Shown here in pieces: positions 1,225 to 32,638 of a stretch of 64,000 bases of DNA. Source of the DNA: an uncultured Carboxylicivirga sp. (lineage in GTDB: Bacteria; Bacteroidota; Bacteroidia; Bacteroidales; Marinilabiliaceae); the NCBI GenBank assembly GCA_947491945.1, contig CANLLN010000009.1, positions 1-64,000 on the forward strand, written 5' to 3'. The first letter of the stretch is position 1. Every line of letters starts with the position of its first letter. The notes below the pieces were generated by a model. The model worked only from the letters and a program-made list of their open reading frames with translations, made no database searches and was not told the origin of the DNA. A program made the position numbers and the translations under genes.

Positions 1225-4200
1225 ATGAAAAAAGTACCAATTGATCGGGGTTTGCATAGCATTTCTCGTTCTGGAAAAATTTTTCGTGTGATGAAATTAT
1301 TAAGCGTATTTCTCATTTGTGGGTCTATGGCAATTTCGGCCGCCGGCTTTTCGCAAGGCAAGCGCGTGACCATTCAAAAAAGTGCCATTTCTATTCAGGA
1401 CTTGTTTACTCAGTTGGAAAACAAGGCAGACTGTCGTTTTGCATTTAGCAACTCGCAATTGAATCCTGAACAAATTGTATCGGTTAATGCTGATGATGCT
1501 ACAGTGGAAGCTGTTTTATCTCAGGTGCTTGGCAATGATTTAACCTATAAGGTAATCGAGAACTACTATGTTATTGTTGACAAAGCGGAGACTGTTACTG
1601 CACAGCGTCAGGCACAGCAAGAGCAAGTGGTGGTAAAAGGTTTTGTAAAAGACCATACCGGAGAACCATTACCCGGAGTTAACATTTTTGAAAAAATAAA
1701 CCCAACACGGGGTGTTATCTCAGGTTTCGATGGTTCATACACTATTGAGGTGAGTTCTGCTGATGCCGCCTTAACGTTCTCGTTCATTGGTTTTACTACG
1801 CAGGAAGTGCAAGTGGCCGGCCGCAATGTGATTGATGTAACACTTGTGGAGGAAACAACAGGACTTGACGAAGTGGTAGTGGTTGCTTTCGGTAGCCAGA
1901 AGAAGGTAAACGTAACCGGTTCGGTTGCTAATGTTACCTCTGAGGAACTATCATCACGTCCGGTAGCCGATGTAACACAAGCGTTGCAGGGAATTGTTCC
2001 CGGTATGAACTTTAGCTATGGTAACCAGGGTGGTAAAGTTGGTAGCTCCATGAATATTAATATCCGTGGTACAGGTACCCTGGATAGTAATGTATCCAAT
2101 GCTTCACCGCTGGTGTTAATCGACGGCGTGGAAGGAGATATGAACATGCTGAACCCCAACGATATTGAAAGTATTTCGGTATTGAAGGATGCGGCAGCTT
2201 CATCTATTTACGGATCGCGTGCTCCTTTCGGTGTGGTTTTAATCACGACCAAAAAAGGAACCAGTGGTTCGCTGAATGTAAACTATAACAATAACTTCCG
2301 TTGGTCGAAGGCAGTGAATATGCCTGAAATGGCGGATTCATACACTTATGCTAAATTCCTAAACCAGATTAGTGCCAACGACGGTCAGGGTGGCTTCTTT
2401 ACCGAGGAAGATCTACAGCGTATTCAGGACTATCAGAATGGTGTGATTAATACAACTACGATTCCTGACAAGAACACACCAAGTATTTGGTGGTGGGTTG
2501 GTAACTCTAACAACGACTGGCTGGATGAGATATTTGGCGGAACAGGATTTTCGCAGGAGCACTCACTAAGTTTGAATGGCGGTACTGAAAAAACACAGTA
2601 TTACCTTTCGGCTAACTTTATGGATCAGAACGGTATTGTTCGTTATGGCGATGAAGGTATGCAACGCAGCACTTTCTCAGCAAAGTTAAATACTGAGATT
2701 GCTCCTTGGTTAAAGGCTAACTACAGCATGCGTTTTATGCGTAAAGATCTGGATCAGCCTTACATGCTTAACAACGATTTGTTCTATTACAACACCATGC
2801 GTCGCTGGCCTACACAAGCCTTGTACGATCCTAACGGTAACCTGCAAACCGAGTTGACGAAACAGTTGATGGTAGGTGGTAATAATGTGGGTCAGACCGA
2901 TTGGGTAACACAGCAGCTTCAATTTGTGATTGAGCCTGTAAAAGACTGGAAAACCTTTGCTGAGGTGAACTATAAAACCATCAACAGCTTCCAGGAAAAC
3001 CAGCGTAACAAAGTACCTAAGTACAATGTGGATGGTAACGTATATTACGATGTTGTTGAGAAAAACAGCATTGAAAACAACGCCGGACGCACCAACTTCT
3101 TCAATACTAACATTTACTCGGAGTATACTAAAGCCGTTGATTATCATACTTTCAAAGGTATGGTAGGTTTCCAGAGTGAACTGAATCAGTGGAGACGCGT
3201 AGGCGCTACTAAAGAAGATTTAATTACCGAGCAGGTACCTAGCATTAATACCGCCATGGGTACAGAATTGGCCAATGGTAATGCTAATCACTGGGCTACC
3301 GCCGGATTCTTCGGACGTATTAACTATAACTATGCCGAGCGTTACCTGTTGGAGGTGAACCTGCGTTATGATGGTACTTCACGTTTCGGTCGTGACTCAC
3401 GATGGAACTGGTTCCCTTCATTATCAGCCGGTTGGAACGTGGCTCGTGAAGAGTTCTTCCAGGATTATACCGACATCATTAATACCCTGAAGGTGCGTGG
3501 TTCATGGGGTGAACTGGGTAACCAAAATACAGTAAACCTGTATCCTTATATTCAGTTGATGAATGTCTACCCATCTTCAGATAAACCTCAGAACACTTGG
3601 TTGATTGGTGGTGAGCGTCAGAACGGAGCGAGCGCACCGAGTCTTATTTCTGCCAACCTGGGATGGGAAACCATGCAGTCGTGGAACGTAGGTCTGGATT
3701 TAGGTATGTTTCGCAACCGATTTACCGTTGCCTTCGATTATTTTGTGCGTAAAACCATCGACATGGTAGGTCCTGCACCTGAGTTGCCTGCAACACTGGG
3801 TACGGATGTGCCAAAGATGAATAATACAGATATGCAATCCGCCGGTTTTGAGCTGGATATGGGATGGAGAGATGTTATTGGTAACGTTAGCTACGGAGCG
3901 CGTGTGTTACTATCTGATGACCGTCAGAAAGTATTAAAGTACCCCAACAAGAGTGGTTCTTTCTCAACCTTGCGCGAAGGACAGTACCTGGGCGAAATCT
4001 GGGGCTTAACGACTATTGGTATTGCACAGTCGCAGGAGGAGATGGAACAGCACAACAATTCTTTGCCCGCGGGTGGCCAAAACGCCATAGGGCCGAGTTC
4101 AAACTGGGGTGAAGGTGACATCATGTATGCCGACATCAATAATGACGGAAGAATCTCACAAGGTGCCACGATCAATGATAAGGGTGACTTGAGCCTGCTA

Positions 4201-29057: not shown

Positions 29058-29084
29058 GCTCAATGCAGGTCTTCAAGGGATAAA

Positions 29085-29128
29085 TAACCCCACTACCTGA
29101 AAAAAAGTGGAATCGGTAGCAGGGTTAT
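29085..29128. terminator. Hairpin between convergent genes
   Basis: ATAACCC/GGGTTAT (29085-29091 with 29122-29128) with an inner CTACC/GGTAG pairing and an A-rich loop. It lies between two convergent stop codons, with no long T run on either side, so it is a probable rather than certain terminator. Confidence 0.5.
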
Positions 29129-29138
29129 CACCTCGTGT

Positions 29139-30560
29139 TTAATTGATAATCAGCTTTTTTGTAACTGTCTTATTTTCCTGCTCCATCCTGAATATATAGT
29201 GTCCGCTTTGTAGGAATGGCAAGTTAATACGATCTGTCAGGGTGCTAGTGCTAAATACCTTAGATCCCAGTGTGTTATAAATTGTAATATTTTTAATGCC
29301 GGTGGACGGCGAGTTGATGATGAGCAAGCGATTGTCAGTCATGGGGTTGGGATGGATGTGTACATCTTTATTAAACTGCTTGCTAATGGTGGTTGCAGCA
29401 TCGTTGACAACTATGAGGTTATCAATTTCGAAATCTTCCACATTGGAGTTGTTAAAGGCTACCATTTTAATCCTGAAATTAGTGGCGTTAAGCCCCGATA
29501 AAGACTTGTTAAAGCTAAGGGTATTGCCCTCTTCAATGTTAATTCCCGGCTGTATGGTATGTGGACTGCCTTCGAGCTGGTAGGTGTTACCACCATCGGT
29601 AGAATAGTAAATATCAAGGTATTCGTCGCCTTCAAATGAGCTTCCTACACTGATGTCACAGCTAAAGCTCAGGCTGGATACGCCACTTATATCAATGTTG
29701 CTGGTTTCGAACTTCACCGGATTGTCCACATCATTAAATATCAGGCGCCCGTTTCGTACTGCGGCATAATCATTCTGATTATTAAAATTATCCTCAGGGC
29801 TCAAACTCCATTGGCTCACCAGGTGTGGGTAGTCGCCACGTGTAACCTGATCAGGTGTAAGACTGGCGATGCCAATGTAACCGTAGTTGTCATCATAGCT
29901 GTCAAAGTCCTCCGACCACAGTGTAACAGTATTTCTCTCAACGGATATATCGTCAAGTTCGAAGCGCTCGTTACCCCCGTTGTTATACATTCTGATTCGG
30001 AGGATGAGGTGGTTTGCGGCACCCGGATCGAAGCTATAGTCCAGACTAGTGGTGAAATCAACGCCTTCGTTGCCATCATTGGCAAAGGTATGGCCGCTGG
30101 TTGCCTCCGAACCATCCTGATGGGGTATGAGGGTGTAATTTGCTCCTGCATCGGTAGAATAGTATACATCAATGTATTCATTACCGGCGAAGTTACCTGT
30201 TGTGAAAGCATTAAAGTTTATGTGGCCAATTTTAAGGCTTACCTCACCTGTTTGTGTGCTGATGTCGATGGACTCACTGGTGAAGTAGGCAGAACCATCA
30301 ATATCCCGGGCGTGCAGCTCGCCATTACCCGATGATACATTTACATAAAAGTAGTCCATTGTGGCACTGGTCAGTTCCAGACTGCCGGCATCAAGCTCCC
30401 ACTTACTAACCGCACCCGGCGCGTAGCCATTGTTTGTAGTGTAGGCATTGGGGCCGGTTATGCCCGTATAATCAGCGTAGTTGTCGAAATTTTCCTCCAT
30501 AAGAGTTTGTGAAAGGGCGAGGGTTGGAATCAGACATAGGAGAAGTAGAACGTTTTTCAT
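29139..30560 (-). CDS. T9SS-secreted two-module protein of unknown function
   Basis: This 473-residue secreted protein has a signal peptide (about 1-17), two tandem modules of about 190 and 170 residues, and a C-terminal type IX secretion sorting domain (about 400-473: 'HPNPMTDNRLLI', 'ITIYNTLGSKVF', 'SGHYIFRMEQ'). The modules are clearly duplicated, each holding an 'EYIDVYYSTDAG' or 'EYLDIYYSTDGG' strand followed by a 'FELDDISV' or 'FEIDNLIV' end. They are probably beta-sandwiches of the MAM or 'choice-of-anchor' type and have no recognisable catalytic site. The likely role is binding or adhesion at the surface. It is divergent from an interrupted membrane-bound regulator gene, 223 bp away, which may once have controlled it. 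Confidence 0.85.
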   Translation of the reverse strand: MKNVLLLLCLIPTLALSQTLMEENFDNYADYTGITGPNAYTTNNGYAPGAVSKWELDAGSLELTSATMDYFYVNVSSGNGELHARDIDGSAYFTSESIDISTQTGEVSLKIGHINFNAFTTGNFAGNEYIDVYYSTDAGANYTLIPHQDGSEATSGHTFANDGNEGVDFTTSLDYSFDPGAANHLILRIRMYNNGGNERFELDDISVERNTVTLWSEDFDSYDDNYGYIGIASLTPDQVTRGDYPHLVSQWSLSPEDNFNNQNDYAAVRNGRLIFNDVDNPVKFETSNIDISGVSSLSFSCDISVGSSFEGDEYLDIYYSTDGGNTYQLEGSPHTIQPGINIEEGNTLSFNKSLSGLNATNFRIKMVAFNNSNVEDFEIDNLIVVNDAATTISKQFNKDVHIHPNPMTDNRLLIINSPSTGIKNITIYNTLGSKVFSTSTLTDRINLPFLQSGHYIFRMEQENKTVTKKLIIN

Positions 30561-30754
30561 AATACTGTGTTTTTAGATTGAATATTATAGCTGAATCATG
30601 CTTGATAACTCCGATTTACTGGTCTGTTGTTTTATTATGTCATCATCAACTGACTACGATTGTCTACTACAAATTTTGTCTCTTAATACTAATCTATCTA
30701 GTTATCAGCGATAAAATGATACATCAAAACTGTAAATTGTATAGACAAAACGAC

Positions 30755-30762
30755 TATATTTG
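30755..30762 (+). promoter_or_regulatory. -7 promoter box of the interrupted regulator gene
   Basis: TATATTTG matches TAnnTTTG and lies 21 bp before the ATG at 30784. The -33 box is not at consensus spacing; the nearest TTG is 15 nt upstream. Confidence 0.4.
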
Positions 30763-30783
30763 AGTTAACCAAGCTTTTTTATT

Positions 30784-32079
30784 GTGATGAGTGAAGTTCG
30801 TTTTTTCAAAGCCTTAAGTTATGTTCTTTGGTTTATTTTGTTTAGTGGGGTTCATGTCATTGCGCAGGAACCCACTAAGATTATTGCCAGTGGTGACGCA
30901 TGGATGTATTACGATGGTGAACTGCCGCCTCCTAGCGGTTGGGAAAAGGGGGGTGTAGCCACCGAGGGTTGGAAACAAGGCAATACCTGTATTGGATACG
31001 GCGATAAGGTAGTTAATACGGTTATAAGCTATGGGAATAATCCCGGGAAAAAGCATATGGCTGCTTATTTTTGCAAAAGCTTCATGCTTGATGATCCTTA
31101 TGCTTATCTTTTTTATCAAGTCAATATCATTAAAGATGATGGCATTGTCTTGTATCTCAATGGCCGTGAGATTTATCGTAATAACATGCCGGAGGGAAAG
31201 GTCACGCATCATACGCGGGCAGCCAGCCTTATTGTGAATAATCCCATGGAAGCATATCGGCATCAGGTGGTACTTGCTCCTGCTGATCTCAATGCGGGTC
31301 TAAATACTTTAGCAGCATCGGTTCATCAGGGCAAAAAAACATCGGAAGATCTTATTTTTAATCTCGAATTAATAGGCGATAACAATGCTGCCATGTTGCC
31401 TTTGTTGAATAAGGAACGCACTATTAAAGAATTGAAGCTGGATATGCAGCTACAGGATTTAGCACATCAGCATACTGTAGAGAATCAAGCAATGCAATTA
31501 GCTATTATTCAACAGAAAAATGAGAATCTGACCCATTACCTGTATCTTTTTGTGGCACTGTTTTTAGTAGTTTTACTGCTGGGTATCTATTTTTTTCGAC
31601 AGATTCAGGATATGCGGGCTTTGACGCAGGGTAAGGAGGCCATAATCAAGGATAAAGATGCAGAGATGATGAATGCATCGCTGCATGCCCTCAATGGCCG
31701 GTATTTTCTGAAAGGAATAAAGAAGCAGTTGGAGGATTGTGAGGAGCTGGAGGGAGGTGCTTATACTAAAAAAATCTTACGAAAGGTAATACGCGATATT
31801 GACTATAATGATAATGTAGGTGAGGATTGAGAGAAGCTGCAAAGACATTTTAATGTGGTGCATGCCGGCTACCTGGAGAAGTTGAAATATCTGCATCCTA
31901 ATCTGAGTGATATTGAATTAAAGCATTGTATCTTTATTAAACTGCACATGGAAGCTAAGGAGGTGGCTTCACTCTTAAACGTTGAACCCCGCTCGGTGGC
32001 TACCTCCAAGTATCGTATTAAAAAGAAGCTACAACTCACTGAAGCACATGATTTGAAGGATTATTTACTTTCTGTTTGA
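30784..32079 (+). pseudogene. Membrane-anchored LuxR-type regulator interrupted by an in-frame TGA
   Basis: The first part (30784-31830) encodes 348 residues: a signal peptide, a periplasmic beta-sandwich with 'LFYQVNIIKDDGIVLYLNGREIYR', a coiled stretch, a membrane segment (about 250-270) and a cytoplasmic linker ending '...NVGED'. A TGA stop (31828-31830) follows. The same frame then continues without a shift to 32079 and encodes 'EKLQRHFNVVHAGYLEKL' and a LuxR-like helix-turn-helix ('MEAKEVASLLNVEPRSVATSK'). In the family this junction normally reads D-W-E-x-F/L, so TGA stands exactly where TGG is expected. Without read-through the membrane sensor loses its DNA-binding domain. A recent nonsense mutation, a sequencing error or UGA read-through could each explain it. 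Part two could be made alone only from the GTG at 31855. Confidence 0.85.
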
Positions 32080-32168
32080 GGGTAAATGATTTCGTGTCGG
32101 TACCAGTCTGTAGGCTGATTTTGAACTAGTAGTAGGTTCTGCAAGTTGCATTTTAATTACGTATTTAG

Positions 32169-32240
32169 GGAATGGTTCTTTATAAGCATCTTACAATAGA
32201 GAACCGATCCCTGGAACAACTTGAAAGCTCTACCGGTTGT
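32169..32240 (+). repeat. Dispersed palindromic repeat, copy A (palindrome plus tail)
   Basis: A 42-bp imperfect palindrome with arms GGAATGGTTCT (32169-32179) and AGAACCGATCC (32200-32210), followed by a tail ending near 'GAAAGCTCTACCGG'. The palindrome matches copy B (59235-59276) at 37 of 42 positions. The tail aligns with copies C and D, matching D at 23 of 32 positions. It lies 90 bp after the interrupted regulator. Confidence 0.75.
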
Positions 32241-32329
32241 ATATTTTGCCATTTCGTTTTTTGTTTATTGGCAGTGTTTCCTCTTGACTTACTTTTGCTT
32301 GTTAGATATATTATGGCAGCAAGGAGCTT

Positions 32330-32357
32330 CAAACAACTGATTTTTATCAGTTGTTTG
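32330..32357. repeat. Perfect 12-bp hairpin
   Basis: CAAACAACTGAT and ATCAGTTGTTTG surround a TTTT loop. There is no T run after it, so it is not a standard intrinsic terminator. Its role is unknown. Confidence 0.6.
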
Positions 32358-32638
32358 ACCTGCCTGGTTAGTATTTTATGCGATCCGATCAGTCCATTTT
32401 GATTTTTAGACTTGAATGCTAATAAATAGGTTAACACTCTAAAAAACAATGTAATACAGAATACTGCATAGAAAAAATATTTATAAAAAGGTGCTGTATA
32501 ACATGTAATAAAGAAAAAAATCTTGATTTTTAACTTTTTTAACATTTAAAAGGTCAACATCTCACTTGTAGTATCTATTTTTGATGGCATAAAGAACAAT
32601 TAAAGAATTTTTGGTGTAATTGTAAACTATCTGTATTT

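Follow-up and report, generated by a model that had tools for sequence, protein, structure and literature searches.

Analysis of a 64,000-nucleotide stretch from an uncultured Carboxylicivirga sp. (hereafter, the window) revealed a single TGA at 31828-31830 that interrupts the otherwise open frame 30784-32079, exactly at a tryptophan codon that all 17 full-length relatives found keep. We think it reasonably probable that the stop is genuine and that a nonsense mutation has hit this invariant Trp codon, which would leave a sensor-membrane-coil stub without DNA binding, so that regulation is lost. The preliminary description of this DNA had proposed a membrane-bound LuxR-type regulator, divergent from a T9SS protein gene and split in one frame by the stop, and each of these points was borne out, the T9SS gene being intact and the regulator showing a signal peptide, a membrane helix and a LuxR-like helix-turn-helix (HTH) layout.

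The interrupted frame and its tryptophan column

The regulator frame begins with GTG at 30784, followed by ATG at 30787, and ends at the stop 32077-32079. The features of the region are as follows.

29139..30560, minus strand: intact divergent gene for a secreted protein with Reelin subrepeat-B and a T9SS sorting tail; candidate target
30755..30762, plus strand: TATATTTG, promoter-like element matching TANNTTTG, which we take to be the consensus of the Bacteroidetes -7 promoter element
30787..31827, plus strand: open part before the stop, 347 aa, with signal peptide, sensor, membrane helix and cytoplasmic coil
30865..31386, plus strand: sensor domain, aa 27-200, a predicted beta sandwich like the GH2 N-terminal domain (AlphaFold2, Foldseek)
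31522..31608, plus strand: membrane helix, aa about 246-274 (Kyte-Doolittle scan)
31828..31830, plus strand: in-frame TGA, at the Trp column of relatives
31831..32076, plus strand: separated LuxR-like HTH part, 82 codons, open up to the stop at 32077-32079
31987..32028, plus strand: probable recognition helix, aa 401-414 (AlphaFold2 model)

The Kyte-Doolittle scan of the part before the stop gave two hydrophobic stretches, aa 7-27 and aa 246-274. The -7 element match TATATTTG would be expected 0.1 times by chance per 225 bases of one strand, and the same promoter scan found no match of that kind for the divergent T9SS gene.

Alignment by tblastn placed W exactly at the stop column in 32 of the 35 non-self loci aligned over the site; two of the remaining three (L024 and L025) have W within three residues, and the third (L030) has L. 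A profile scan of genome contigs with a three-row alignment yielded 40 loci, of which 15, including those of genomes G706 and G848, hold full-length relatives. These amount to 17 copies from other Bacteroidota, every one uninterrupted and every one with W at the column. Two scan patterns were used, one that included W and was fitted by only two of the 15 loci (L137 and L140) and another that was fitted by all 15; W was therefore no selection condition for the 13 loci that do not fit the W-containing pattern. Three of the 17 copies form a tandem array in a Tenacibaculum locus (L144:3554-8212), where the middle copy (652 aa) has an extra sensor domain in front.

The stop thus lies inside a frame that relatives keep continuous, one of the signs of a pseudogene made by nonsense mutation. 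A natural division into two genes with a separate HTH gene, which the preliminary description had set against its own reading, was found in none of the 17 relatives and is rejected, since all are single open frames. A crude scan, detecting only same-frame stops with good coding scores, identified nine stops between two well-coding runs of at least 60 codons in 1.196 Mb of the 4.9-Mb genome, a draft of 216 contigs. Eight are followed by an ATG 0 to 15 codons later and by eye separate ordinary neighbouring genes, and TGA 31828-31830 is the sole one that lacks an ATG for 39 codons and has relatives continuous across the stop. A second stop-split candidate proved by eye to be an ordinary kinase/regulator gene boundary. 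Separately, another LuxR-type HTH gene, in the genome of a relative (L177, G022:C216, near base 1750), carries an in-frame TAA in its coil part, away from the Trp site.

Few of the genomes sampled, in partly overlapping sets, hold a full-length relative. There were none in 59 other genomes (35 of them from the genus and family), none in 70 other genomes of the family (limit 1e-22) and none in a sample of 394 other members of the phylum (limit 1e-28), and a single one, in G706, among 392 other genomes of the order (limit 1e-24), with up to four candidates scored per genome in the last two samples; a search among relatives of G706 added one more, in G848. Five partial matches from phages all fell on the C-terminal part, and a plasmid search and a viral scan with the regulator gave nothing useful.

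Sensor fold and layout of the regulator family

In its intact form the protein is a single-pass one-component regulator, with a signal peptide, sensor, membrane helix, coil and LuxR-like HTH. An AlphaFold2 model built from an 18-row alignment (mean pLDDT 78, pTM 0.44) predicted a beta sandwich, a long helix that crosses the membrane and, at the end, a helical HTH, with position 348, the stop site, near the start of a helix at 344-358. Comparison of the model with the PDB by Foldseek returned glycoside hydrolases in all 50 matches listed, out of 120 at E under 0.001; most are beta-glucuronidases or beta-galactosidases, and their E values run from 4e-5 to 4e-4. Since the alignment covers only a portion of the model, the TM-scores are low (TMq 0.20-0.27), and the aligned length suggests that this portion is the sensor. 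The sensor would thus share the predicted fold of the N-terminal domain of GH2 glycosidases, but the regulator lacks their catalytic domain and is only 9-15% identical to the 50 listed matches. A PDB search by sequence gave no match with the regulator, and sequence relatives of the sensor domain also occur inside large open frames. On the basis of the modelled fold, the ligand is probably a sugar or a sugar-bearing compound.

Comparison with described families suggested a known layout in a little-known family. SusR of Bacteroides is described as a membrane protein whose sensor is periplasmic and whose C-terminal DNA-binding domain is cytoplasmic (PMC3878776), a layout common to the relatives and to the window frame if read across the stop; the window gene as it stands, with its stop, does not conform to it. 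The NCBIfam SusR model has a cut-off of 480; L137 scored 19.1 bits with it, and the window parts and L143 were not among its listed matches. Some relatives of the window gene adjoin SusC/SusD-type genes. The best NCBIfam match of the HTH part was the BT3442 family (NF053779), with 27.5 bits for the window, 26.8 for L137 and 29.7 for L143, but these scores are far under the cut-off of 940; the part before the stop had no NCBIfam match at 0.001. A literature search on regulators of this type returned nothing that we recognised as describing the family.

With the Pfam GerE model the window HTH part reached 18.1 bits, below the cut-off of 23.5, which was reached by seven of ten scanned relatives (L137, L138, L141, L143, L147, L149 and L151) and missed by three (L139, L144 copy 1 and L145). 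Its two best paralogues within this genome share 35% and 36% identity with the HTH part. The same coil-Trp-HTH end, at about 24-36% identity, also occurs in large regulators (about 900-1000 aa) of this genome and of relatives, presumably propeller sensors with a Y_Y_Y domain, but their matches stop short of aa 27-200 of the window protein.

Neighbouring genes and origin of the copy

The divergent T9SS gene is a candidate target by neighbourhood. In the two Flavivirga loci, L147 and L148, a gene for a relative of its product, 34-36% identical over the C-terminal half, is found some 4 kb away from the regulator; the two loci count as one case because their regulators are nearly identical. On the strength of these loci, it is plausible that the regulator controls the divergent gene, and likewise plausible that the stop cost the cell this control. 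No other relative of the T9SS protein appeared in the remaining 38 loci of the contig scan or, itself apart, in the 1.196 Mb fetched (both at a limit of 0.01), and there was none in 35 relatives' genomes at 1e-12. No binding site for the regulator was found, and a repeat-type operator is rejected, since 30540-30800 holds no direct or inverted repeats of at least 10 bases. Upstream of the regulator in L145 (4644-4741) there are two 23-base direct repeats, 74% alike and 75 bases apart, which may be chance; SusR motifs are reported to be direct repeats with a spacing of 67 or 77 bases (PMC3878776).

Around the relatives the neighbourhoods are of several kinds. Pfam identified a metallophosphoesterase gene close to the regulator in L137, L140, L145 and L147, and tblastn identified one in L148; L146 has a gene that, judged on length and place, corresponds to the metallophosphoesterase gene of L145. 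The gene after the regulator in L140 (6585-9353) encodes a metallophosphoesterase with a T9SS tail and with a domain related to the regulator's sensor, so that by their sequences sensor and enzyme look as if they shared a ligand-binding module. A divergent TonB-dependent receptor of SusC size adjoins the regulator in L142, a SusC-type gene and SusD are found in L143, and L150, judged on layout, resembles these SusC-type loci. The neighbours scanned in L138, L139, L141, L144, L149 and L151 (one or two in each) are of other kinds, and among the listed neighbours in the window none resembled SusC/SusD genes by eye. In L141 the regulator has a carboxyltransferase gene nearby (2282-3907), and by eye a methylmalonyl/propionyl-type carboxyltransferase follows the window gene; this may be coincidence.

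Phylogenetic analysis placed the window copy beside the Tenacibaculum copies (support 98/96), inside the Flavobacteriaceae. A topology uniting it with the other two Bacteroidales copies was rejected (p-AU 2.3e-5). Two cautions apply to this tree: the composition of the window row is unusual and its end branch is 1.02, and L140, one of the other two Bacteroidales rows, was flagged as long. Judged from these sequences, the window copy is of Flavobacteriaceae type, with its closest relatives in that family, and no close orthologue of it was found. No copy of the regulator turned up in 13 other species of the genus, and in the stretches upstream of the orthologous carboxylase gene in 12 of these 13 genomes, two of which end less than 1 kb from that gene, neither the T9SS gene nor the regulator was found. 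Three of the 12 stretches, from sister species (L099, L100 and L101), keep the window's other neighbours with different genes between them: compared with window 29058-32638, other genes replace the T9SS gene and the regulator, by eye DUF423-like and PAP2-like genes and, in two of the three, a ferredoxin-like reductase gene as well. A compositional sign of recent transfer was rejected: relative to 73 long frames of the contig, neither the T9SS gene nor either regulator part deviates by more than 1 SD in GC or GC3; a transfer, if any, was therefore not recent.

Age of the stop and competing explanations

The preliminary description had reasoned that the rest of the gene is undamaged and the event therefore recent, an argument weaker than it was put: with so short a downstream part, an intact remnant says little about elapsed time, and the HTH shows excess change at fixed positions. 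In simulations of neutral change at 0.15 per base, run without indels, the 82-codon downstream part stayed open in 26% of runs and the 347-codon upstream part in 0.9%. Among columns fixed in the 14 other rows kept after three near duplicates were dropped, the window departs at four of 20 in the HTH (T390A, I393V, Q405A and R408K; other rows, 0-2 of 16-18), two of the four within the probable recognition helix, and at none of 15 in the sensor (other rows, 0-3 of 15-18). Against this, the plain mean HTH identity of the window row, at 0.55, is not below that of L140 and L145 (0.54 each). On a fixed tree the window's share of branch length was 0.050 for the sensor, 0.075 for the coil and 0.119 for the HTH, and the HTH share exceeded the sensor share in 200 of 200 bootstraps (60 of 60 in a first bootstrap), compared with 0-163 of 200 in the eight other rows listed, from which rows with all shares under 0.02 were left out.

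A whole gene long dead is unlikely to explain the HTH excess, because the upstream frame so rarely stayed open in the simulations, and the normal constraint on the sensor counts against a long-dead gene as well. Two histories would fit: change in the HTH that preceded a recent stop, or an older stop with continued selection on the upstream part. The excess agrees with relaxed constraint after the stop and could also reflect a new DNA site gained before it.

The main rival to a real nonsense mutation is that the TGA comes from faulty sequencing or assembly, or arose in the sequenced clone alone, the regulator of the species being intact. We regard this as unlikely, while giving weight to the fact that a single base in a draft of 216 contigs is at issue and that the rest of the frame, the promoter-like element and the sensor are intact. 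The crude same-frame scan, however, found no second stop-split gene in 1.196 Mb, and the excess change of the HTH would be unexpected in an intact regulator unless its DNA site had shifted.

It is more doubtful that the stop is genuine and that the truncated sensor-membrane protein retains a use, for example as a ligand sink, while the HTH drifts. The changes at 0 of 15 fixed sensor columns and 4 of 20 in the HTH, the unanimous bootstraps and the rarity with which the upstream frame would have stayed open had the whole gene drifted are consistent with this possibility, but a shift in DNA specificity before a recent stop would produce the same pattern, none of the 17 full-length relatives is a natural stub, and the coil before the stop is itself somewhat fast relative to the sensor. 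A bolder version, which we consider decidedly improbable, holds that the stop is long-standing and that selection keeps only the sensor-membrane stub, the regulator having turned into an output-less signal-binding protein beside the secreted protein that it formerly controlled.

Least probable, in our estimate very much so, is that the stop is read through to give a little full-length regulator. Trp is a usual misreading at UGA. In-frame stops have been argued to be widespread in bacterial genes, many with dN/dS under 1 (PMC7918605). Read-through as an option of the preliminary description nevertheless gained no support from the decoding apparatus of this genome. TGA terminates 52 of 536 frames of at least 300 codons and is a normal stop here. 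The tRNA search gave 60 matches with 150 of 300 candidates scored, and ARAGORN, which read all 60 places in their loci, found no TCA, CTA or TTA anticodon among them. Both tRNA-Trp genes (contigs C5 and C32) have CCA and 5-bp anticodon stems, not the 4-bp stem that is linked to UGA reading in one report (PMC13092985), and Trp recoding is thus rejected. Selenocysteine is rejected as well, since no tRNA-Sec exceeded the cut-off in this genome, a cut-off that 5 of 14 control genomes reach; 8 of 13 sub-threshold places were read by ARAGORN as Ser, Leu, Phe and Tyr tRNAs. Ordinary low-level read-through is compatible with the tRNA and stop-usage evidence.

We therefore favour a real nonsense mutation and propose the following course. 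In the intact regulator, the periplasmic beta-sandwich sensor would bind its ligand, probably a sugar or sugar-bearing compound, the membrane helix and coil would join the sensor to the cytoplasmic LuxR-like HTH, and the HTH would switch neighbouring genes for secreted or outer-membrane proteins. A copy of apparent Flavobacteriaceae type adjoins the T9SS protein gene, at a site that other genes occupy in three sister species; with a nonsense mutation at the Trp codon before the HTH, translation would end there, and the product would be a sensor-membrane-coil stub without DNA binding, with regulation lost.

The event itself, a nonsense mutation in an accessory regulator, is an ordinary one, and the little-known regulator family is of more interest. 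The analysis brought out a family of single-pass Bacteroidota regulators with a predicted GH2-N-terminal-like sensor and with neighbours that include SusC/SusD-type, metallophosphoesterase and T9SS genes. This family fits no SusR model at its cut-off and supplies testable candidates for the control of secreted proteins.
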